From Mucilaginibacter empetricola (GTDB lineage Bacteria; Bacteroidota; Bacteroidia; Sphingobacteriales; Sphingobacteriaceae), in contig NZ_JANUBZ010000007.1 of NCBI RefSeq assembly GCF_024808665.1, positions 1 to 64,000 on the forward strand: DNA of 64,000 nucleotides. Direction: 5' to 3'. The notes beneath the pieces were generated by a model, which saw only the letters and a list, made by a program, of their open reading frames with translations, was not told the DNA's origin and did not search any database. Positions 41,963-51,139 of the stretch are shown here, piece after piece. Position 1 is the first letter of the stretch. Each line of letters opens with the position of its first letter. The translations under genes and the position numbers were made by a program.

Positions 41963-42865
41963 TCACATCGACAAAATAACGCCGCCGGTTATTTGATATC
42001 CATCGCGATAAACCCAATTGAGTCGTGTTTTATCCACTTCGCCGGTTGAAAGATAAAGCTGATCAGTTCCGTTGCCGGTTTCCCAGTTATAATAGCCGTA
42101 GCTGCCGTAAACAGCAATATGGGGTGTAATATTATAAATTAACCGTGCATTGGCATCAAGGCCATAGCCATCGGCCACATGGGTATAACTTATGGGGTGC
42201 TGAAACTCCTGTATCAGGTTCCAATCGCCGCGGGCATTATAACTAGTCTGGGTATAGGTGATATCACCAGCTAACTTTAAGCCCTGCCATATTTTTATTG
42301 ACGAAGTAATTTTTACAAACGGGCCCCTCCAGCTGGTAAAATAGCTGCTGTTCAGCGTAGGAAACTGTCCCGACAAATCAACAATATATAAATTTTGCAC
42401 ACTGTTACTATAACCGGCATAAGGTATCAGGCTAAATAGTTTATTGTTAAAAATAACATATCCGGCTCCTGCCAGCCATGATGTGGTAAATCCTTTATTA
42501 TCGCTAAAGTTACCAGTGTAAACCGGCTGTGTACGATTGTCCGCTCCATAATCCATATCATTTACCGAGCCCGAATGTACATCTACCCTGTTATAACTCC
42601 CCATAACAGCAAACCGGTGCCAGAAATTCCACTGCAGCGATGCGGAATAGTAGGTACCACTTACATCTTTCCATTTCAGCTCCGACAAAATATTAGGGCT
42701 TTGTCCGTTTTGATTTCCGGCTATCGACCAGTTAAAATTATCCTGCTGCTGTTTGCCTGCCGAAAAAGACAGCTGTGCTTTTTGTTCAATATCCTGCGCG
42801 GTGCAGCACTGCGCAAAAACCATCAATGCAAAGGCATAGCCAAACAAGCGAAAAATCTTATTCAT
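41963..42865 (-). CDS. outer-membrane beta-barrel protein
   Basis: 300 aa. A signal peptide (about 1-23) and then alternating amphipathic strands rich in Y, W, N and G (for example SGTYYSASLQWNFWHRFAVM, KGFTTSWLAGAGYVIF, HIAVYGSYGYYNWETG), ending in GGVILSM. The pattern and length resemble omptin-like/Protochlamydia-type outer membrane barrels of about 10 to 12 strands. It is the last of the minus-strand beta-glucan genes, 29 bp after GH16, so it may be co-expressed. Specific function unknown. Confidence 0.7.
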   Translation of the reverse strand: MNKIFRLFGYAFALMVFAQCCTAQDIEQKAQLSFSAGKQQQDNFNWSIAGNQNGQSPNILSELKWKDVSGTYYSASLQWNFWHRFAVMGSYNRVDVHSGSVNDMDYGADNRTQPVYTGNFSDNKGFTTSWLAGAGYVIFNNKLFSLIPYAGYSNSVQNLYIVDLSGQFPTLNSSYFTSWRGPFVKITSSIKIWQGLKLAGDITYTQTSYNARGDWNLIQEFQHPISYTHVADGYGLDANARLIYNITPHIAVYGSYGYYNWETGNGTDQLYLSTGEVDKTRLNWVYRDGYQITGGVILSM

Positions 42866-42894: not shown

Positions 42895-43746
42895 TTATTT
42901 TGATTTATAAACCCGCACATAATCAACATACATACTGGCCGGCAACTGGCTTTCATCAACGGTTTGTCCTGGAAAATCGCCGGCAACAGCCAGATTTAAA
43001 ATGATGAAAAATGGCAGCTGAAATGCCCCGGTGTTGTTAATGTTGTTTTGAATATTACCGGTACAGTATAAATTATTATCAACGTACCATTTAATGGAGC
43101 TTGCATCCCAATCAATAGCATAATTGTGATATTCATCCGGATTGGCTATCTGTGTTGTAAGGCCATATTGTACTGCCCCGTTCACGTTCCAGTGCATAGT
43201 TCCGTAAATAACATTGGTAGCATTTACATGCTCCATTATATCCATTTCGCCACATTGCGGCCATGATACGGTAGAAATATTGGCACCCAACATCCAGAAC
43301 GCGGGCCACAAACCAGCACCTAATGGCAGTTTTATCCGAGCTTCAATTCGTCCAAACTGTGCAGTTACTTTATTCTGCGTATTTAGCCTGGCAGATGTAT
43401 AGGGTTGCCCTCCTACTATTTCTTTTTTGGCTGTAATAACCAAATTACCGTTGGCCACTGTTGCATTGGCAGCCTGGTAATATTCTTTTTCGTTATTTAC
43501 GTTGAGGTTGCCCGTTTCAAAATTCCATTTGGTGGTATCAACAGCAGTGCCGTTAAACTCATCCGACCAAACCAAAGTATAATTTGCAGGCACGGTGCTG
43601 GTATCTGCCTGGGTAACAGGCTGGGTTACTACAGTTACAGGTGTGGGAGTTACCACCGCTTGTGTTTTTTTGCACGACGATGTTGAAAGTGCAAGCACCA
43701 GTATAAAACCGGTGCTTGTTATTAGATAATTAGGGTGTTTTTTCAT
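42895..43746 (-). CDS. GH16 beta-glucanase lipoprotein (copy A)
   Basis: 283 aa. Lipobox STSSC (C25), a threonine/proline linker (about 30-52) and a single GH16 domain (about 55-283). The catalytic motif is CGEMDIMEHVN with E167 nucleophile, D169 and E172 acid/base. The sequence resembles laminarinases, which cut beta-1,3- or beta-1,3/1,4-glucan. It lacks the C-terminal module present in copy B but its catalytic domain is a close paralogue, so the two arose by tandem duplication with loss or gain of the module. Confidence 0.93.
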   Translation of the reverse strand: MKKHPNYLITSTGFILVLALSTSSCKKTQAVVTPTPVTVVTQPVTQADTSTVPANYTLVWSDEFNGTAVDTTKWNFETGNLNVNNEKEYYQAANATVANGNLVITAKKEIVGGQPYTSARLNTQNKVTAQFGRIEARIKLPLGAGLWPAFWMLGANISTVSWPQCGEMDIMEHVNATNVIYGTMHWNVNGAVQYGLTTQIANPDEYHNYAIDWDASSIKWYVDNNLYCTGNIQNNINNTGAFQLPFFIILNLAVAGDFPGQTVDESQLPASMYVDYVRVYKSK

Positions 43747-43796: not shown

Positions 43797-45014
43797 TTAT
43801 TGATTCACTTTAAATGACTCCCATCCCGAAGCTACCGTGCGGTTGCAGGTCATGGCCTGGGTGCCGTCCTCACTCGAAATAAAATCACCGTTATTGCCTT
43901 GCAATGTTATCGTTCCATCTGCATTTACTCCCCAGGTAAACTCTTCCCATGTGCTAAAACTGGTACGGTTACAGGTTATTGGCATGGTACCATTCTCACT
44001 TGATACATATTTGCCCATGCTTTGCAAAGCGACTTTACCGTTTCCGGCATCTACCACTAAAAATTGTTCCCATGTGCTGGCAACGGTGCGGGTGCAGGTC
44101 ATAGCTGTTGTACCATCCTCTCCACTTACATAATCATTATTAAATCCTTTTAGGGTGATGGTTTGTCCAATTGGCGGCCCGCTGGAAGTTACGCCCTTAT
44201 AAACGCGTACATAATCAACATACATACTTGCCGGTAGTTTACTTAAATCGACGGTTTGTCCCGGAAAATCACCGGCTACAGCCATGTTTAAGATGATGAA
44301 GAAAGGGTTTTGAAATGCCCCTGTATTATTGATATTGTTGGCGATATTTGCCGTAGCATACAGGTTATTATCAACCCACCAGGTAATAGAATTAGTATCC
44401 CATTGCACCGCATACAAGTGGTAAGCATCCGGGTTGGTTGTAGTGTTGCCACCGTATTGCGTATTACCGTTATCGTACCAATGGATGGTTCCATAAATGG
44501 TATTATCAGCATTAACATGTTCCATAATGTCCTGCTCACCGCATTGAGGCCAGCCAACGGTATTAATGTTCGTTCCCAGCATCCAGAAAGCGGGCCACAA
44601 GCCCTGGCCCAAAGGCAATTTCATACTTGCCTCAATACGACCATACTGGCAGGAGAATTTCCCGGAAGTATTCATTCTGGCCGATGTATAAGGCCAGCCG
44701 CCAACACTTTGGTTCATAGCTGTAATTACCAGGTTGCCGTTGCTTACAGTAGCATTTGAAGCCTGATAATATTCCTTTTCGTTATTTACGCCCGGATTGC
44801 CGGTTTCCATCGTCCACTTGGTGTTGTCAACGCTGGTGCCATTAAATTCATCCGACCAAATAAGCTGATACGTTACCGCCCTTGGAGCAGTGGTTTGCGT
44901 ATTGCTACTTGTTAAAGCATTTTTGGGGCTGATATCCTTTTTGCAGGAAAAAGCCATCAACAGCAACAGGACCATTCCGGTACCTGTTAAAAATTTTAAG
45001 AGATGTGTTTTCAT
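43797..45014 (-). CDS. GH16 beta-glucanase lipoprotein with fascin-like beta-trefoil (copy B)
   Basis: 405 aa. Lipobox AFSC (C24), GH16 domain (about 48-275) with CGEQDIMEHVN (E160, D162, E165), and a C-terminal module (about 280-405) of three similar repeats, each carrying a (D/G)-(Y/K/D)-(V/F)-(S)-S/G-E-(D/N)-G core and closing with W-E-x-F. Three-fold repeats of this kind form a fascin-like beta-trefoil, probably glycan-binding. The module is almost identical to that of the GH30 enzyme upstream. Confidence 0.93.
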   Translation of the reverse strand: MKTHLLKFLTGTGMVLLLLMAFSCKKDISPKNALTSSNTQTTAPRAVTYQLIWSDEFNGTSVDNTKWTMETGNPGVNNEKEYYQASNATVSNGNLVITAMNQSVGGWPYTSARMNTSGKFSCQYGRIEASMKLPLGQGLWPAFWMLGTNINTVGWPQCGEQDIMEHVNADNTIYGTIHWYDNGNTQYGGNTTTNPDAYHLYAVQWDTNSITWWVDNNLYATANIANNINNTGAFQNPFFIILNMAVAGDFPGQTVDLSKLPASMYVDYVRVYKGVTSSGPPIGQTITLKGFNNDYVSGEDGTTAMTCTRTVASTWEQFLVVDAGNGKVALQSMGKYVSSENGTMPITCNRTSFSTWEEFTWGVNADGTITLQGNNGDFISSEDGTQAMTCNRTVASGWESFKVNQ

Positions 45015-45059
45015 AAAAGGTTATTTAATGTATTAATTGATTAGTTGAACATTAATCTA

Positions 45060-45102
45060 AAACAAAGCATCTCTCGGGATTTACCAGAGAGGTGCTTTGT
45101 TT
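45060..45102 (-). terminator. hairpin between GH30 and GH16 copy B
   Basis: AAACAAAGCA plus CTCTC on one arm pair with GAGAG plus TGCTTTGTTT on the other (one wobble). On the minus strand it follows the GH30 stop (45105) and ends in GTTTT, so it can reduce read-through to the GH16 genes. Confidence 0.65.
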
Positions 45103-45104
45103 AT

Positions 45105-46991
45105 TTATTGGTTTACTCCAAATGACTCCCATCCCGAGGCCGAAGTCCGGTTACAGGTCATAGCCTGCGTACCATCCTCGCTCGAAATAAAATCACCATT
45201 GTTGCCTTGCAGTGTTATAGTCCCATCAGCATTTACACCCCAGGTAAACTCTTCCCAGGTACTATAAGTGGTGCGGTTGCACGTAATAGGCATAGTGCCA
45301 TTTTCGCTGGATACATACTTGCCCATGCTTTGCAGCGCTACTTTGCCATTGCCTGCATCAACTACTAAAAACTGCTCCCAGGTGCTTGCTGTGGTTCGGG
45401 TACAAGTCATGGCGGTGGTGCCGTCTTCGCCGCTTACATAGTCGCCGTTAAACCCTTTCAGGGTGATAGTTTGACCAATTGGAGGGCCCGATGCTGATGA
45501 TTGTGTTCCGGCCCATTTAAAGGTAGCAGCAGCTCCTGCTGGTAATGTATAAGTGAATGACTCGGCCCCCCATTTAATTTTAAATGTTTGGCTTGTTGTT
45601 GCAGTATTTAATGCTACAACCACTTTGGTACCATCGGTATTTTTGAAGGCCACATCCTGTATACTACTTGAAAAAGTATTGGATGAAATGCGCACAGCAC
45701 CGGCTTTTACAAATTCCGAAACGTGGGCAACCGTATAGTAAGCTGTATTACGGGTATAGTTATTGCCCGATATAGTTACCGCACCCAGGCAGGTTGAGCA
45801 GCCACCGGAAGTATGCGGATTATAATTTGGATCGGAAGCAAGATTCCATTCCAAAACTACCCGGCTCCAGTTACGTGGGGCGCCGATAAGCAAATTATTC
45901 ATATGCCATGAAAAATCTCCCGAAAAATTGCCGGGACCGCCAATATATTGCTCAGTGAAATAAACATTTTTGGCAGGGTATGCATTATGTACAGTTGTTA
46001 AAGCGCTTATGTCACCGGCATACAGGTGAAATGCAGAGCCATCTACATAAGGATTAGCGCTTGCGTCACCCAAAACGGCTTCAGGATAACCCGGTTGGTC
46101 ACAATTATGATCATAAGCAATAATTTTGGTAGTGATGCCATTTGCCGAAAACTGAGGACCAAGGTTATTTTTTATAAAGTTAGCTTCCTCGTTTGATTGC
46201 ATGGTCATGGCGGGATTGTTGTTGGCATTTAACGGTTCATTTTGCGGGGTTATAGCATAAATGGTTATACCCTGCGCGGCCATTGCCTGTATGTATTTCA
46301 CAAAATAACGCGCATAAGCATCATAATAAGCTGTATTTAAGCTGCCCCCTGTAAAACCGCCATTGCCTGTAGTATTTGATTTCATCCAGACAGGAGCTGT
46401 CCACGGGGTAGCTAATATTTTTATGGAGGGATTAATGGCGATGATCTTTTTTAGTACCGGCACCAAGTCGGTCATTTCCTGGCTGATGCTGAAATTATTA
46501 AGATTATTATCTGTTTGCCCCGATGGCATATCATCATAAGTAAAATCAGAAGAGCTGAGATCTGAAGCTCCAATACTAATGCGCACAAAGCTTGACCCTA
46601 CATGGCCCGCAGCTGTTGAAAAAATATCATTAAGAAACGTACTTTGATTTGCGCCGAGGCCGTCAATTAATTGTGCACTGCCACCGGTTAGCGCATAACC
46701 AAAGCCGTCTATAGTTTGATAAGTGGTGTTTTCATCAACCGTAATAGTTGTGGCATTAGTGCCTGCGTCTGCTGCAAAATTTATACTGGTTTGCTGTGCT
46801 AAAAGCTTGCTTTGATCTGATGTTGTTTCCCATACGTTTACGGTTTCATTTGCTGCCCGAGCAACCGTGCTTGTATTCATCCCGGGAACGGATGGACCCG
46901 ATTTTGACAAGTCCTTTTTACAAGAATAAAGAAATAGCACAGGTGCTATTAGCAGCACCCCCAGCAATTTAATTGTGTAATTTGTCTTCAT
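45105..46991 (-). CDS. GH30 glycosidase lipoprotein with fascin-like beta-trefoil
   Basis: 628 aa. Lipobox LYSC (C24), GH30 (beta/alpha)8 barrel (about 85-430) with acid/base E252 (ITPQNEP) and nucleophile E347 (VYFTEQYIGG), a beta-sandwich (about 430-500) and the three-repeat trefoil module (about 505-628). GH30 members of this kind are endo-beta-1,6-glucanases or glucosylceramidases; with GH16 neighbours, cleavage of the beta-1,6 branches of fungal or algal beta-glucan is most likely. It lies upstream of GH16 copy B on the same strand. Confidence 0.93.
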   Translation of the reverse strand: MKTNYTIKLLGVLLIAPVLFLYSCKKDLSKSGPSVPGMNTSTVARAANETVNVWETTSDQSKLLAQQTSINFAADAGTNATTITVDENTTYQTIDGFGYALTGGSAQLIDGLGANQSTFLNDIFSTAAGHVGSSFVRISIGASDLSSSDFTYDDMPSGQTDNNLNNFSISQEMTDLVPVLKKIIAINPSIKILATPWTAPVWMKSNTTGNGGFTGGSLNTAYYDAYARYFVKYIQAMAAQGITIYAITPQNEPLNANNNPAMTMQSNEEANFIKNNLGPQFSANGITTKIIAYDHNCDQPGYPEAVLGDASANPYVDGSAFHLYAGDISALTTVHNAYPAKNVYFTEQYIGGPGNFSGDFSWHMNNLLIGAPRNWSRVVLEWNLASDPNYNPHTSGGCSTCLGAVTISGNNYTRNTAYYTVAHVSEFVKAGAVRISSNTFSSSIQDVAFKNTDGTKVVVALNTATTSQTFKIKWGAESFTYTLPAGAAATFKWAGTQSSASGPPIGQTITLKGFNGDYVSGEDGTTAMTCTRTTASTWEQFLVVDAGNGKVALQSMGKYVSSENGTMPITCNRTTYSTWEEFTWGVNADGTITLQGNNGDFISSEDGTQAMTCNRTSASGWESFGVNQ

Positions 46992-47512
46992 AAAAAATTG
47001 GTTTTTATAGTTGATTTAATTGGTTTAGGCGCAATACCAACACAGAGCCGGGGCAAATAAATAAGCCCTTTAAATTTAACCACAAATTAAAACAACAGGA
47101 GCAAGCAAGCCTTAAAAGCCCGAATCCATCTCATTGTTTTTCAGCGGCAGGTAATTGTCACGTTTATATTGGTAAAACAAATTTAGATTAATTTATACGG
47201 TAAAAACAAATTAAAAGTTTATAAATAATTGATTTAAAGCACATTATATATAAAACGATACGCTTTAAACACAATAACTAATTACCCGCAAAAGAGCTTG
47301 AGAGTATCCTAAGGTTGATTTTCATCACGGGAAATTTTATTTCTGATACGCTTGGTTCACATTTAATTTTCAGGAAAAAATATTGATTGCGCAAAATGCC
47401 AATTCCAGCGCAGTATAGGCACTATCCAGGTATGTGGAGAGGCAAACTATAGAGATATTTCAGGTCATCATGAGATGAGCTATTTCGTATTTATCAATTC
47501 AAGAGCAGCAAA
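46992..47512. other. 521-bp intergenic region upstream of GH30
   Basis: No gene found. It holds the GH30 leader, the word CGATACGCTTTAA (47256-47268) shared with the GH5 upstream region, GATACGCTT again at 47345-47353, and CGCAAAATGCC (47390-47400), which is also shared. It is otherwise A/T-rich without long hairpins or heptamer arrays. Confidence 0.6.
47256..47268. promoter_or_regulatory. candidate regulator site upstream of GH30
   Basis: CGATACGCTTTAA, identical to 51127-51139 upstream of GH5. It lies about 265 bp from the GH30 start codon. Binding by the membrane regulator encoded next door is inference. Confidence 0.4.
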
Positions 47513-49429
47513 CTAGTCAGTTTCCAAAACCAATTTGCTCCAGCCCTTGTCGCCGGTATTTTTGGCTTCCTTTTTACGGCTGTTCATTACCTTTTTTATG
47601 CGGGAGCTGTAGGCCCAGCAGGTACTTTGGCGGATAGATAAAATTTCGGAAAGCTTATGTGATGATATTTTTCCGTTGGTAGAGTACATCAAAAATATCA
47701 TATAGAAGGCCTTATTAAGAGGGATGCGGGTGTTTTGCAATAAGGTATAAGCAATAACCGATTCTTCGTACCCGCATTTGGAGCAACGCCTGCTATAAGG
47801 TAAATGTCCGTTACCATAATGGGTGTTGCTGCATTTGCGACAGGCATAACCCTTTTCCCATTTCAAGTCGGACAGAAATTTAAAACAAGTTTCACGATCA
47901 GGATATATCTTGCTGAATTCTTCAAAATCAACTTCGGTTGACATTATCCGGCTGTGTGTTACCTTTTCAATATCCTGATGCAAAGCAGAATTATCATTCT
48001 CCAGCAACACATTCATCCGCGAAATTTCCTCGGCCTGTTGTTTTAATAACTGATTAACAAGTTTCAACTCATCGTTCTGCTGCGCTATCAATACTGATTT
48101 TTCCGACAGTTCGCGAGTGCGTTCCTGTACCTGATCTTCCAGGCTTTTATTTAACGTATCCTTCAACTCGTCATTAAGCTTTAACTGTTTGATAACCAGC
48201 AATTGGGCTTCTTCTTCTTTCTGTTTCAGTATCCGTACCTTATCGCCTATGGCAAATGAAATGAAGATCATCTCCATAATAAAACAAAAGCTTAAGCTAT
48301 AATAAGCAGCGGCGGTTACCGGCAGCCACCAAACATTCAATGCAATGAGCGTTTTGATAATAAACCCGGCAAACAAAAAAGAATACCCTATAACAAAAAA
48401 ACGGGCAGCGTTATAACCCTTTATCAGCACATAGCAGCCCGTAAAATAAATAAGTGACAAGGGGATTATCTCTATTATTTTGTACCTAAACCAATTCTCG
48501 TTCACCGTTAAACACAACACAAAAAACAAACTCCGCAGGGTCATTACCCATAAAATCAGCTTATTTAAACGCGGCGCATTTACCTTTACATTTAACAAGC
48601 TTTGGGCAAACAGCACCGAAAAAATACTGGCCGAAAACAGCGCAATACCATAGGCCTGATGATTCCAACTAGGTGCGCCGGGCCAAATGTATTGATAGGC
48701 GATGCCATCCACACACATTTCATACAGGCCGATGCTGAGGTTATAGGCAATATAGTACAGGTATTGTTTTTGCCGCATGGCTATAAACATCATGAGGTTA
48801 TACAAGCCAAACACGAGTATCATTCCATAAAAAATACCGAAGAAAAAATATTCATCAAGCGCATAGCTGATAAACCAGTTTACCGACCGCAACACCATGA
48901 TGACGTTTACCGGCTGATGCGATTTAATGCGGATATAATAAACCTGAACACCTGTAAGCCCGCTGTTTAAATTAAGACTGAAGTTTTTATGGTGATACAT
49001 GCGCGCTGCGAAAGGACGGCTGCTTCCCAGGAAAGTTGCCGAATAACTACCCTGTTTATCGGGCGAATAAACAGCTATGCTATCAATAGTTTGATCAAAA
49101 AACTCCAGTATCCAGTTATTGCGCGACTGTGGGTTATGCATTATCCGGATGCGATACCAGTAAGTAACATTAGGATCGGTAGTTGCAGGAGTAGCATCCC
49201 TGTTTGTTTTGAATTTTACATCAAAAAAAGGGTTTTTTACCTGATTAAATGTTAGGTTATTATGTACATCCATCAGATAACTTACCTGACCATACCTGAA
49301 GATCTGTTGCTTGGCCGAATCAGCAATTGCTACGGTTACCTGCGCACAAACTTTTGTACAGGCAAGGCAAGCCCATAGGGGTATCAAAAAACGCAATAAA
49401 AGTTTCACCATATTTATAGGTAGCTGCAT
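47513..49429 (-). CDS. 7TMR-DISM membrane sensor fused to an IS1595-type transposase zinc-ribbon DNA-binding domain
   Basis: 638 aa. Signal peptide (about 1-29), periplasmic 7TMR-DISM extracellular domain (about 35-185), seven membrane helices (about 195-405), a coiled coil (about 405-500), then a C-terminal domain (about 505-615). That domain has zinc-ribbon cysteines C530, C533, C549 and C552, followed by (L/T)-x-NTRIPLNKAFYMIFLM and a helix-turn-helix-like KLSEILSIRQSTCWAYSSRI, matching the N-terminal part of IS1595-family transposases. The DDE nuclease is absent and the protein ends 30 residues later. Such receptors usually end in a kinase, cyclase or LytTR domain. It is surrounded by beta-glucanase genes on the same strand, so I infer a membrane-tethered regulator of them. 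Confidence 0.85.
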   Translation of the reverse strand: MQLPINMVKLLLRFLIPLWACLACTKVCAQVTVAIADSAKQQIFRYGQVSYLMDVHNNLTFNQVKNPFFDVKFKTNRDATPATTDPNVTYWYRIRIMHNPQSRNNWILEFFDQTIDSIAVYSPDKQGSYSATFLGSSRPFAARMYHHKNFSLNLNSGLTGVQVYYIRIKSHQPVNVIMVLRSVNWFISYALDEYFFFGIFYGMILVFGLYNLMMFIAMRQKQYLYYIAYNLSIGLYEMCVDGIAYQYIWPGAPSWNHQAYGIALFSASIFSVLFAQSLLNVKVNAPRLNKLILWVMTLRSLFFVLCLTVNENWFRYKIIEIIPLSLIYFTGCYVLIKGYNAARFFVIGYSFLFAGFIIKTLIALNVWWLPVTAAAYYSLSFCFIMEMIFISFAIGDKVRILKQKEEEAQLLVIKQLKLNDELKDTLNKSLEDQVQERTRELSEKSVLIAQQNDELKLVNQLLKQQAEEISRMNVLLENDNSALHQDIEKVTHSRIMSTEVDFEEFSKIYPDRETCFKFLSDLKWEKGYACRKCSNTHYGNGHLPYSRRCSKCGYEESVIAYTLLQNTRIPLNKAFYMIFLMYSTNGKISSHKLSEILSIRQSTCWAYSSRIKKVMNSRKKEAKNTGDKGWSKLVLETD

Positions 49430-49561
49430 AATTGTTCAAAATTGGCCCTGCAGGCCATGAACAAACGTTTTATAATTGGTTTACTTAGGTAAACAATTAT
49501 AACGGTTTTCTTTTGCTAATCCTATTAAAGGTAAGGTTTACAGTTATTTAAGGGGTGGGGA

Positions 49562-49659
49562 AGCCTCACCTAAATCCTCTCCAGGGGGAGAGGACTTTAA
49601 CTTCGCTCTTTTTTACTCTTTTTTAAAACCCTCTCCGTTGGAGAGGGCAGGGTGAGGCT
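49562..49659. repeat. nested inverted-repeat element
   Basis: Outer arms AGCCTCACC (49562-49570) and GGTGAGGCT (49651-49659). Inside lie two hairpins with the same core: TCCTCTCC/GGAGAGGA (49575-49594) and CCCTCTCC/GGAGAGGG (49629-49647). It lies between GH5 and the sensor gene. It belongs to a common intergenic repeat type built on CCTCTCC...GGAGAGG. Confidence 0.75.
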
Positions 49660-49682
49660 ATTAGACTTTTTTAAATCCCTAT

Positions 49683-50915
49683 TTACGGTTTCAGATCCAA
49701 TGCCTGAATATATCCGGTATTAGGCTTGCAGTTTTCAAATTTGCTGTAGTCAATAAAATCGAACAATGCCTTTTTTAATGCTTCGCGATCGGCTGGGGCA
49801 GCTTTTCTGATGGCAGCAAAGTCCTCTCGGGGCAGCTGTGTGTAGGCAATCAGCTTATCATAATTTGCAGGAACATTAAAGGTTACAATCCCTTTTGTAT
49901 TGTCCATTTTTTTGTATGGCCAGTAATGCCAGCCAATATTGTTTTCTTCCAGTGTTTTTTTGAAATCGCCTACCCATTGGTCGGTATTTTCGCCTGTTTC
50001 GCCACAGTAAATGGGCACGTTGTATTTGTCCCTAAAATCAATGTAATCCTGTATAACTTCTTTACCGGTAGTTTTAGTCCAGTATTTATGAAACTGATAT
50101 ACCAGTTTTGAGTCGAACGGCGTACCGAAGCAGCTGAAGTTGCTATCCCATTGCGCACCGCCTAAAAACAGGATGTGGTTTTTATCAACCTCGCGTATTG
50201 CTGCGGTTATTTGTTTGTATGTAGGCTCCAAAGAAGGATTAAACTCATTTTTATCGAAATAGGTAGCAATAGGCTCATTCAATAAATCATAACCCATTAC
50301 GGTGGTTTCATTTTTATAATGATCAGCTATCCGGCGCCAAATGTTGGCGGTTAGCTCGCGCATGGCCGGACTCTTAAATAGAAACGGGTAACCGTAGCCA
50401 TCGTCAATATTATCTCCGGTTTGGCCACCAGGTGCGCAGTGCATATCTAAAATAACATATAAACCTTCTTGCTTACACCAGCCTACTACCCTATCCAATA
50501 ATTCAAACCCACGGTTTGGATCTTTTTGTTCCAGGTAGTTTTCATTATTAAAAATGCGGTAATTGAATGGGATACGAATCGAGTTCATGCCCGAAGCTTT
50601 TAAATAATGGATATCGGCAGCGGTGATATAAGTGTCCTGATATTTTTTCCAAAAAGCGCCAGCTTCTTCAGGACCTAATAACTCCAATATAGCCTCATTA
50701 ATTAAACGGGGCGCATTAATGTTGGTGAATTTAAACATATAGCCCTCGGGTACCAGCCAGTTGCCAAGGTTTGTACCCCGTATTAAAAATGGCTTATTAT
50801 CGGCACCAATAATTTCCTTCCCTTTTGTTGTAATAAAGCCGCCCTGTTGCGCCATTGCCCCAAAGGGAAGCATCAGGGTCATTAAAAAAAATAATTGTAA
50901 ACGAAATTTGTTCAT
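49683..50915 (-). CDS. GH5-family glycosidase (cellulase/beta-glucanase-like)
   Basis: 410 aa. Signal peptide (about 1-22; cleavage near AMAQ) and a GH5 TIM barrel. Acid/base E214 in YDLLNEP and nucleophile E306 in IYCGETGE; the RGTNLGNWLVPEG start (about 46-58) and LDMHCAPGG (about 156-164) resemble exo-beta-1,3-glucanase-type GH5 enzymes. Secreted to the periplasm or surface. It is first in the minus-strand order GH5, sensor, GH30, GH16, GH16. Confidence 0.92.
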   Translation of the reverse strand: MNKFRLQLFFLMTLMLPFGAMAQQGGFITTKGKEIIGADNKPFLIRGTNLGNWLVPEGYMFKFTNINAPRLINEAILELLGPEEAGAFWKKYQDTYITAADIHYLKASGMNSIRIPFNYRIFNNENYLEQKDPNRGFELLDRVVGWCKQEGLYVILDMHCAPGGQTGDNIDDGYGYPFLFKSPAMRELTANIWRRIADHYKNETTVMGYDLLNEPIATYFDKNEFNPSLEPTYKQITAAIREVDKNHILFLGGAQWDSNFSCFGTPFDSKLVYQFHKYWTKTTGKEVIQDYIDFRDKYNVPIYCGETGENTDQWVGDFKKTLEENNIGWHYWPYKKMDNTKGIVTFNVPANYDKLIAYTQLPREDFAAIRKAAPADREALKKALFDFIDYSKFENCKPNTGYIQALDLKP

Positions 50916-51126: not shown

Positions 51127-51139
51127 CGATACGCTTTAA
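51127..51139. promoter_or_regulatory. candidate regulator site upstream of GH5
   Basis: CGATACGCTTTAA, identical to 47256-47268. CGCAAAATGCC directly precedes it (51117-51127) and also recurs at 47390-47400. It lies about 212 bp from the GH5 start and 76 bp from modA. Confidence 0.4.

Follow-up and report, generated by a model that had tools for sequence, protein, structure and literature searches.

Among receptors that join a periplasmic DISMED2 domain to a seven-helix 7TM-DISM membrane bundle, RetS, LadS, SagS, and RgsP end in kinase or cyclic-di-GMP enzyme domains. Regulators of the ToxR/CadC type cross the membrane once and carry a winged helix at the N terminus, and ChiS is a membrane-bound regulator of chitin genes. 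The known regulators of polysaccharide utilization loci (PULs) are mainly hybrid two-component systems, SusR-type proteins, sigma/anti-sigma pairs, and AraC-type factors. The initial annotation of the locus described here stated that 7TMR-DISM receptors normally end in kinase, cyclase, or LytTR domains; this stands for the usual outputs but not as a rule, because one architecture that joins a 7TMR-DISM receptor to a ChiS-family DNA-binding domain is already in print (PMC8092284). The ChiS-family domain is a different one, was described for proteobacterial genomes, and does not appear to be derived from a transposase. The 1,6-beta-glucan PUL of B. thetaiotaomicron that contains BT3312 is made up of the SusR-type regulator BT3309, SusCD, GH30_3, and GH3 (PMC5481569).

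The receptor gene described here lies in a stretch of 64,000 nucleotides from Mucilaginibacter empetricola (the window). The receptor has the DISMED2 domain and 7TM bundle in common with RetS, LadS, SagS, and RgsP but its output is a putative DNA-binding module. As in ToxR/CadC-type regulators, sensor and DNA-binding domain are in one membrane protein, but here with seven spans and a C-terminal zinc ribbon and helix-turn-helix (HTH). In Pedobacter loci, which have the same make-up as the BT3309 PUL, the receptor occupies the position of BT3309 although the two are unrelated, the receptor having neither a SusR-type nor a kinase domain. Its zinc ribbon and HTH appear to be homologous to those of IS1595-family transposases but, unlike these, it lacks the DDE domain and terminal inverted repeats and is found in a fixed chromosomal context. 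The parts are known in kind (7TM-DISM receptors, membrane one-component regulators, domesticated transposase domains). Full-text searches of open-licence PMC papers gave no description of this architecture as a regulator, and against these papers the combination and its role are best read as an undescribed class. We propose, with a probability of about 0.85, that the receptor is a membrane-tethered one-component transcription regulator of polysaccharide-utilization genes; this had been suggested in the initial annotation, and the conserved PUL context and the invariant cysteines agree with it. If this is true, it would be a widespread additional class of PUL regulators, present in many soil and water bacteria, in which a bacterial transposase DNA-binding domain has been turned into a membrane-bound transcription factor, and a seven-helix receptor would be driving DNA binding without phosphorylation or a second messenger, which is open to test. 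In the Sphingobacteriaceae-type clade, the candidate operator is readable and the target genes would be predictable from sequence.

Table 1. Coordinates of the regulator, its neighbours, and the candidate regulatory elements in the window.
Feature	Position	Strand	Basis
GH5 gene, upstream neighbour	49683..50915	(-)	Pfam and structure comparison
Regulator gene, 638 aa, ATG start	47513..49429	(-)	Pfam and NCBIfam matches
Periplasmic DISMED2 domain, residues 48-180, RetS-like fold	48890..49288	(-)	Pfam; model matched to 3jyb
7TM-DISM membrane bundle, residues 193-397	48239..48853	(-)	Pfam
Long cytoplasmic helices (coiled coil), residues 400-494	47948..48232	(-)	model, low confidence from ~441
Zinc ribbon, residues 512-554, C530 C533 C549 C552	47768..47896	(-)	sub-threshold Pfam match; Cys conservation
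IS1595-type HTH region, residues 566-626	47552..47734	(-)	NCBIfam NF033547 positions 1-62; model helices
RQSTCW, presumed recognition helix, residues 600-605	47615..47632	(-)	alignment; tracks motif
GH30 gene, CBM92-like C-terminal module, first after operator pair	45105..46991	(-)	Pfam and structure comparison
GH16 gene, CBM92-like C-terminal module	43797..45014	(-)	Pfam and structure comparison
Second GH16 gene	42895..43746	(-)	Pfam
Outer-membrane beta-barrel protein, Pom family match	41963..42865	(-)	Pfam
Candidate operator site 1, TGTGAACCAAGCGTATC	47345..47361	(-)	footprinting, motif counts, genome search
Candidate operator site 2, TGTGTTTAAAGCGTATC, 88 bp beyond site 1	47257..47273	(-)	same basis as site 1
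Third core site, AAGCGTATC, ahead of GH5-regulator run	51128..51136	(-)	motif search
Promoter-like -7 element TAAATTTG, 80 nt after site 2 core start	47178..47185	(-)	motif spacing analysis
TTTG as -33 element	47207-47210	(-)	same spacing analysis

Both receptor domains scored far above their Pfam cut-offs, 7TMR-DISMED2 (PF07696) at residues 48-180 with 94 bits against 22 and 7TMR-DISM_7TM (PF07695) at residues 193-397 with 147 bits against 29, which agrees with the periplasmic domain and seven helices originally annotated. The coiled coil that had also been annotated appears in the full-length model (pLDDT 84.5, pTM 0.62) as long helices at residues 378-451 and 460-494, residues ~441-500 being of low confidence. 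The closest structure to the periplasmic model is that of RetS (3jyb, E 1.3e-5, TM by target 0.78), and the model also weakly resembles sugar-binding beta-sandwiches of glycoside hydrolases and CBMs. The C-terminal part had been described as a four-cysteine zinc ribbon and helical region matching the N-terminal part of IS1595-family transposases. The four cysteines and the library matches are there, but the matches are below the curated cut-offs: Zn_ribbon_IS1595 (PF12760) at residues 512-554 scored 17.2 bits (cut-off 25.4) and the NCBIfam IS1595 transposase profile at residues 566-626 scored 31 bits (E 2.1e-7, cut-off 75). A model of the C-terminal 145 aa had a pLDDT of 85.8 and a pTM of 0.79, and the zinc ribbon and HTH module gave no confident match in the PDB. 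The NCBIfam match covers profile positions 1-62 of 215, with only 12 more residues to the end of the ORF; by this comparison the DDE catalytic domain is absent, as had been claimed. The claim that there are no terminal inverted repeats also held in that the 4 short inverted pairs in 46950-49700 do not flank the regulator ORF. The complete list of Pfam matches of the receptor up to an E value of 1 consists of the 7TM, DISMED2, and zinc ribbon domains and a non-significant coiled-coil match, with no kinase, beta-propeller, or HTCS/SusR/AraC-type domain among them.

Since the library matches of the C-terminal part are below cut-off, the homology to IS1595 transposases rests on these matches together with alignment and a tree. 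When the receptor was aligned by eye with two IS1595-type transposases of the same genome, the likeness spanned the ribbon and the HTH, and the receptor stopped about where the transposase DDE domain would begin, in the stretch preceding the first catalytic Asp. The four cysteines are kept in 96/96 sequences and C530, C533, C549, and C552 are invariant in a 39-row alignment that includes distant families; mutated cysteines, which the initial annotation had counted as evidence against its reading, were seen in neither. In the 39-row alignment, the linker-helix residues N452, I469, N473, L476, and D479 are invariant too. A search with residues 500-638 found 1080 proteins at E<=0.001, and the best 120 of these 1080 all have the 7TM domain. 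The genome scan gave 142 confirmed stretches, of which the best 80 were retained, and these fall in Mucilaginibacter, Pedobacter, Desertivirga, Pararcticibacter, Arcticibacter, Hufsiella, and some loosely named MAGs. In a phylum-wide sample, 39/395 genomes matched at E<=1e-6, transposases counted in, and receptor-length frames were also found in families f2, f8, and f9; judging from identical or close database proteins, the f8-type receptors are those of Cyclobacteriaceae and relatives, and the f9-type receptors are mainly those of Hymenobacter. The DNA-binding domain was present in 99/196 genomes sampled from one further family, most matches being in frames of ~600-700 aa. In a maximum-likelihood tree of 59 DNA-binding domains, 40 regulators lie on one side of a single branch (support 91/83), and this clade is nested among IS1595-like proteins. 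Nearest to it are L123, a standalone protein of 151 aa, and, from genome G457, four transposase-like proteins, followed by the intact transposases L125 and L237. It is probable from these sequences that the IS1595-like module was captured once by the receptor lineage; a single regulator clade is consistent with one capture but does not prove it.

The genes in this part of the window are, in order, GH5, regulator, GH30, GH16, GH16, and outer-membrane protein, all on the minus strand, and so the annotated arrangement of GH5, GH30, and GH16 neighbours on one strand is correct. This run recurs in many Mucilaginibacter relatives; in Pedobacter and others, SusC, SusD, and GH30 or GH3 come after the regulator. 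Conservation of the context was counted in three samples of 79, 35, and 40 regulators picked by protein alone, loci chosen for the motif being left out; entries are distinct within each sample and species may overlap between samples. Genes were called with a longest-ORF script, neighbours were named by BLASTP against Pfam-annotated clusters, and SusC, SusD, GH30, GH16, GH5, GH3, GH2, PL14, GH97, and sulfatase were counted as PUL-type. A PUL-type gene was found within two genes of the regulator in 75/79 of the main sample, which comes from the best of the 142 stretches of the genome scan, in 30/35 of the further genomes, and in 37/40 of the Cyclobacteriaceae-type set. The next downstream gene on the same strand was PUL-type in 55/79, 16/35, and 31/40, respectively. 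Eight sampled genomes have 9-45 SusD genes each and, with ~5000 genes per genome, chance adjacency is estimated at about 1 percent per gene. The PUL context is kept in all three samples, and its loss had been the other ground on which the reading could have been given up. A GH30 gene at E<=1e-60 was present in 25/25 same-genus genomes with the regulator versus 7/25 without it (19 of the latter 25 had no match to the regulator and 6 had only weak or transposase-like matches). At one locus (L232:6284-10140) two receptors lie in tandem after GH5, and the motif pair described below lies ahead of GH5. At other loci, in some Mucilaginibacter (L199-L207), the order is GH3 or GH30, a protein weakly matching multihaem cytochromes, GH5, and then the regulator.

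The PDB entry closest to the window GH30 is 5ngk (E 4.1e-101), which is the endo-1,6-beta-glucanase BT3312 (PMC5481569). The C-terminal modules of GH30 and of the first GH16 match the CBM92 chains 7zoi and 7zoh, and the CBM92 members analysed are reported to bind preferentially to beta-1,6-glucans (PMC11039641). The structures nearest to the first GH16 are endo-1,3-beta-glucanases and laminarinases, and relatives of the window GH5 include cellulases and exo-beta-1,3-glucanases. The likely target of the window locus, as predicted from its enzymes, is beta-1,3/1,6-glucan. Related regulators adjoin GH2, PL14, and other PUL genes and therefore the ligands probably vary. Within 43797-46991, the CBM92-like modules of GH30 and the first GH16 are near-identical and look as if they had been copied from one gene to the other.

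Footprinting of the gaps between regulator and operon gave one conserved asymmetric word in both clades, AAGCGTAT[CT], usually present as two direct repeats 86-92 bp apart before a putative Bacteroidota-type promoter. The exact word AAGCGTAT occurs at least once in 21/21 Mucilaginibacter-type and 26/32 Pedobacter-type gaps and two or more times in 19/21 and 20/32, respectively, and the gap of locus L068 has none even with one mismatch allowed. The left half of the motif is clade-specific (TGYGNNNN versus GGTANTN). In the window the pair lies in the 47.0-47.5 kb region and one core site lies in the 50.9-51.2 kb region, the two regions that had been named beforehand as candidate binding regions. 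TGYGNNNNAAGCGTATC has two matches in the 5.83 Mb genome, both in the 46992-47512 gap, and its reversed control has 0. In the whole window the core 9-mer with one mismatch allowed has 14 matches against 12.7 expected and is not enriched; the case for an operator is thus built on where the sites lie, on their pairing, and on their conservation. In the main sample, exact non-coding sites were found within 1.2 kb of the regulator at 54/79 loci, with two or more at 46/79, while eight permuted control words were found in 0-5 of 79; the remaining 25/79 have no exact site within this distance. In the further-genome set an exact site was found in 13/35 (controls 0-4) and in the Cyclobacteriaceae-type set, within 1.2 kb, in 1/40 (controls 0-2); in Cyclobacteriaceae-type intergenic regions, exact AAGCGTAT was found in 1/35. 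In this latter set (L282-L321), the DNA from regulator to SusC is enriched in words such as GCAAACGTTT and CAATCGATTT, perhaps a LacI-type site or the Cyclobacteriaceae-type operator. A transposon-end origin of the operator was also considered: inverted repeats were sought in near IS1595-like elements (L237-L241), and candidate ends such as TTTAGAATAAGGCGT, which lies at a contig end in L237, and TAAATTTATAGAGGTC of L240 have no clear likeness to AAGCGTATC.

The pair pattern AAGCGTATN{74,92}AAGCGTAT is present in 92 of 301 genomes of the family; by hand count, the reversed-pattern control has 19 hits. At least 48 of the 108 pair hits have a listed regulator within 2.5 kb; of these 48, 46 lie downstream of it and are co-oriented. 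At least 30 further hits are in genomes with a listed regulator and 30 are in genomes without one; 12 of the latter 30 were inspected, of which 9 are inside genes and none of the remaining 3 is beside a recognised PUL gene. Among 20 pair regions away from the regulator's own gap, 16 precede a recognised PUL gene, 2 precede an unnamed gene, and 2 are inside genes. The GH30-GH16 operon no longer adjoins the regulator in five genomes, being 578 kb (G300), 1.15 Mb (G285), or ~10 kb (G234) away or on another contig (G089 and G279), and the pair is still ahead of GH30. Where SusC or GH30 is divergent from the regulator (L209, L210, L211, L214), a motif copy faces these genes. At loci with a divergent ModA gene, a single site, in most cases of the form TTGKTATTAAAGCGTATC, was found before the run ending in the regulator in 13/21 loci headed by a glycoside hydrolase and in 0/10 headed by the regulator itself, some of these loci being near-duplicates. 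The window core site at 51128-51136 is one of these single sites.

Whether the motif goes with the HTH was examined in those protein-picked loci whose next downstream gene is a PUL gene. Of the loci with RQxTCW in the HTH, 55/63 have the motif, as against 1/35 of those without RQxTCW (Fisher p 1.4e-17, not corrected for phylogeny). The motif is nearly absent in Cyclobacteriaceae, whose HTH differs, and this covariation is confounded by phylogeny in that a single clade accounts for nearly all of its losses. Hymenobacter and Cyclobacteriaceae are both in the order Cytophagales, and Hymenobacter-type loci retain RQGTCW and have single sites, exact in L145 and L148 and with one mismatch in L146; from these three loci the motif appears to follow the DNA-binding domain and not the order. 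In the zinc-ribbon loop, residue 539 varies with the class of the left half-site, TGYG or GGTA, among 35 and 26 regulators, a comparison that includes loci picked because of the motif; it was rejected as a specificity residue because the split into two clades explains the pattern equally well. An exact site was found within 700 bp upstream of GH30 for 22/30 genes in regulator genomes, including the 20 best-ranked, versus 2/10 in regulator-free genomes, both of the latter being a single word in one GH30 group (one of these 10 genes had only 1 base of upstream DNA).

The mechanism that we propose begins with the periplasmic RetS-like beta-sandwich, which would sense a glycan breakdown product, in the window probably a beta-1,6- or beta-1,3-gluco-oligosaccharide. 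The signal would travel through the 7TM bundle and the cytoplasmic helices to the zinc ribbon, presumably with zinc bound, and the HTH, and these, still held at the membrane, would bind the AAGCGTATC sites ahead of the putative promoter of the GH30-GH16-GH16-OMP run and the lone core site ahead of the GH5-regulator run. We infer this binding from the conservation of the motif, its specificity in the genome, the pair staying with separated operons, and the covariation with the HTH. Since the DDE nuclease part is gone, the receptor would not transpose. Binding would activate transcription, and from the arrangement of its sites the receptor is probably an activator, here of beta-1,3/1,6-glucan enzymes. 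Of the two-site loci of the Mucilaginibacter type, 18/19 have TAnnTTTG 80-81 nt beyond the start of site 2 together with TTG at -33, and of those of the Pedobacter type, 18/20 have TAACTTTA at 92-93 nt; these -7 and -33 elements we take to be promoter-like from the Bacteroidota promoter consensus. Such sites upstream of a promoter at fixed spacing suggest an activator. The receptor could instead be a repressor that is released from the operon upon the signal, as the varied distances of the single sites would allow, but with two-site loci having their sites upstream of the promoter-like element at this fixed spacing, and not over it, we regard repression as unlikely. A tentative extension of the activator reading, which we find possible but doubtful, is that the class, founded by a single capture, keeps a transposase habit: a dimer at the membrane would bridge the two direct repeats 86-92 bp apart and loop the DNA before the promoter, much like a transposase bringing together the ends of its element.

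The same regulator and operator could also work with the C-terminal part cut off by a protease on signal and acting as a soluble factor. The predicted flexible, low-confidence stretch at ~441-500 between membrane and zinc ribbon would suit a cut, but no protease site or partner gene was identified, and the good conservation of the linker helices speaks more for a signalling helix than for a cut site; we therefore hold proteolysis to be quite improbable. All the support for binding by the receptor is indirect, and it is conceivable that another factor sharing the regulon binds AAGCGTATC while the receptor acts on another DNA site, RNA, or protein; a histidine kinase and response regulator are found just upstream in many Pedobacter loci. 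We give little credence to this explanation because the motif follows the HTH sequence of the receptor, the kinase pair is absent from the motif-carrying Mucilaginibacter loci, and in this genome the long-form sites are confined to the target gap of the receptor. A functionless chance fusion with a decaying transposase fragment would account for the absent DDE domain and the weak library matches, but it is refuted by conservation, the same architecture being present in several Bacteroidota families, as one clade, with invariant metal ligands and conserved context, and we consider its chances negligible. The membrane-held, one-component activator is thus the explanation we prefer.

Some minor observations concern the relatives of the C-terminal module. 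The public names of homologues include chromosome partitioning protein ParA, transposase, LadS kinase, and rubrerythrin, none of which fits the domains. Four standalone proteins of ~150-190 aa (L123, L127, L138, L141) have the same zinc ribbon and HTH without DDE, and these are possible soluble regulators or transposase remnants. Genome G457 (L266-L273) has ~10 IS1595-like proteins of 300-340 aa, eight of which were fetched and are 45-88% alike, and no clear inverted repeats flank them. By eye, the DDE residues of L122, the G457 protein examined in full, look altered, and the G457 proteins may be domesticated, catalytically dead transposases.
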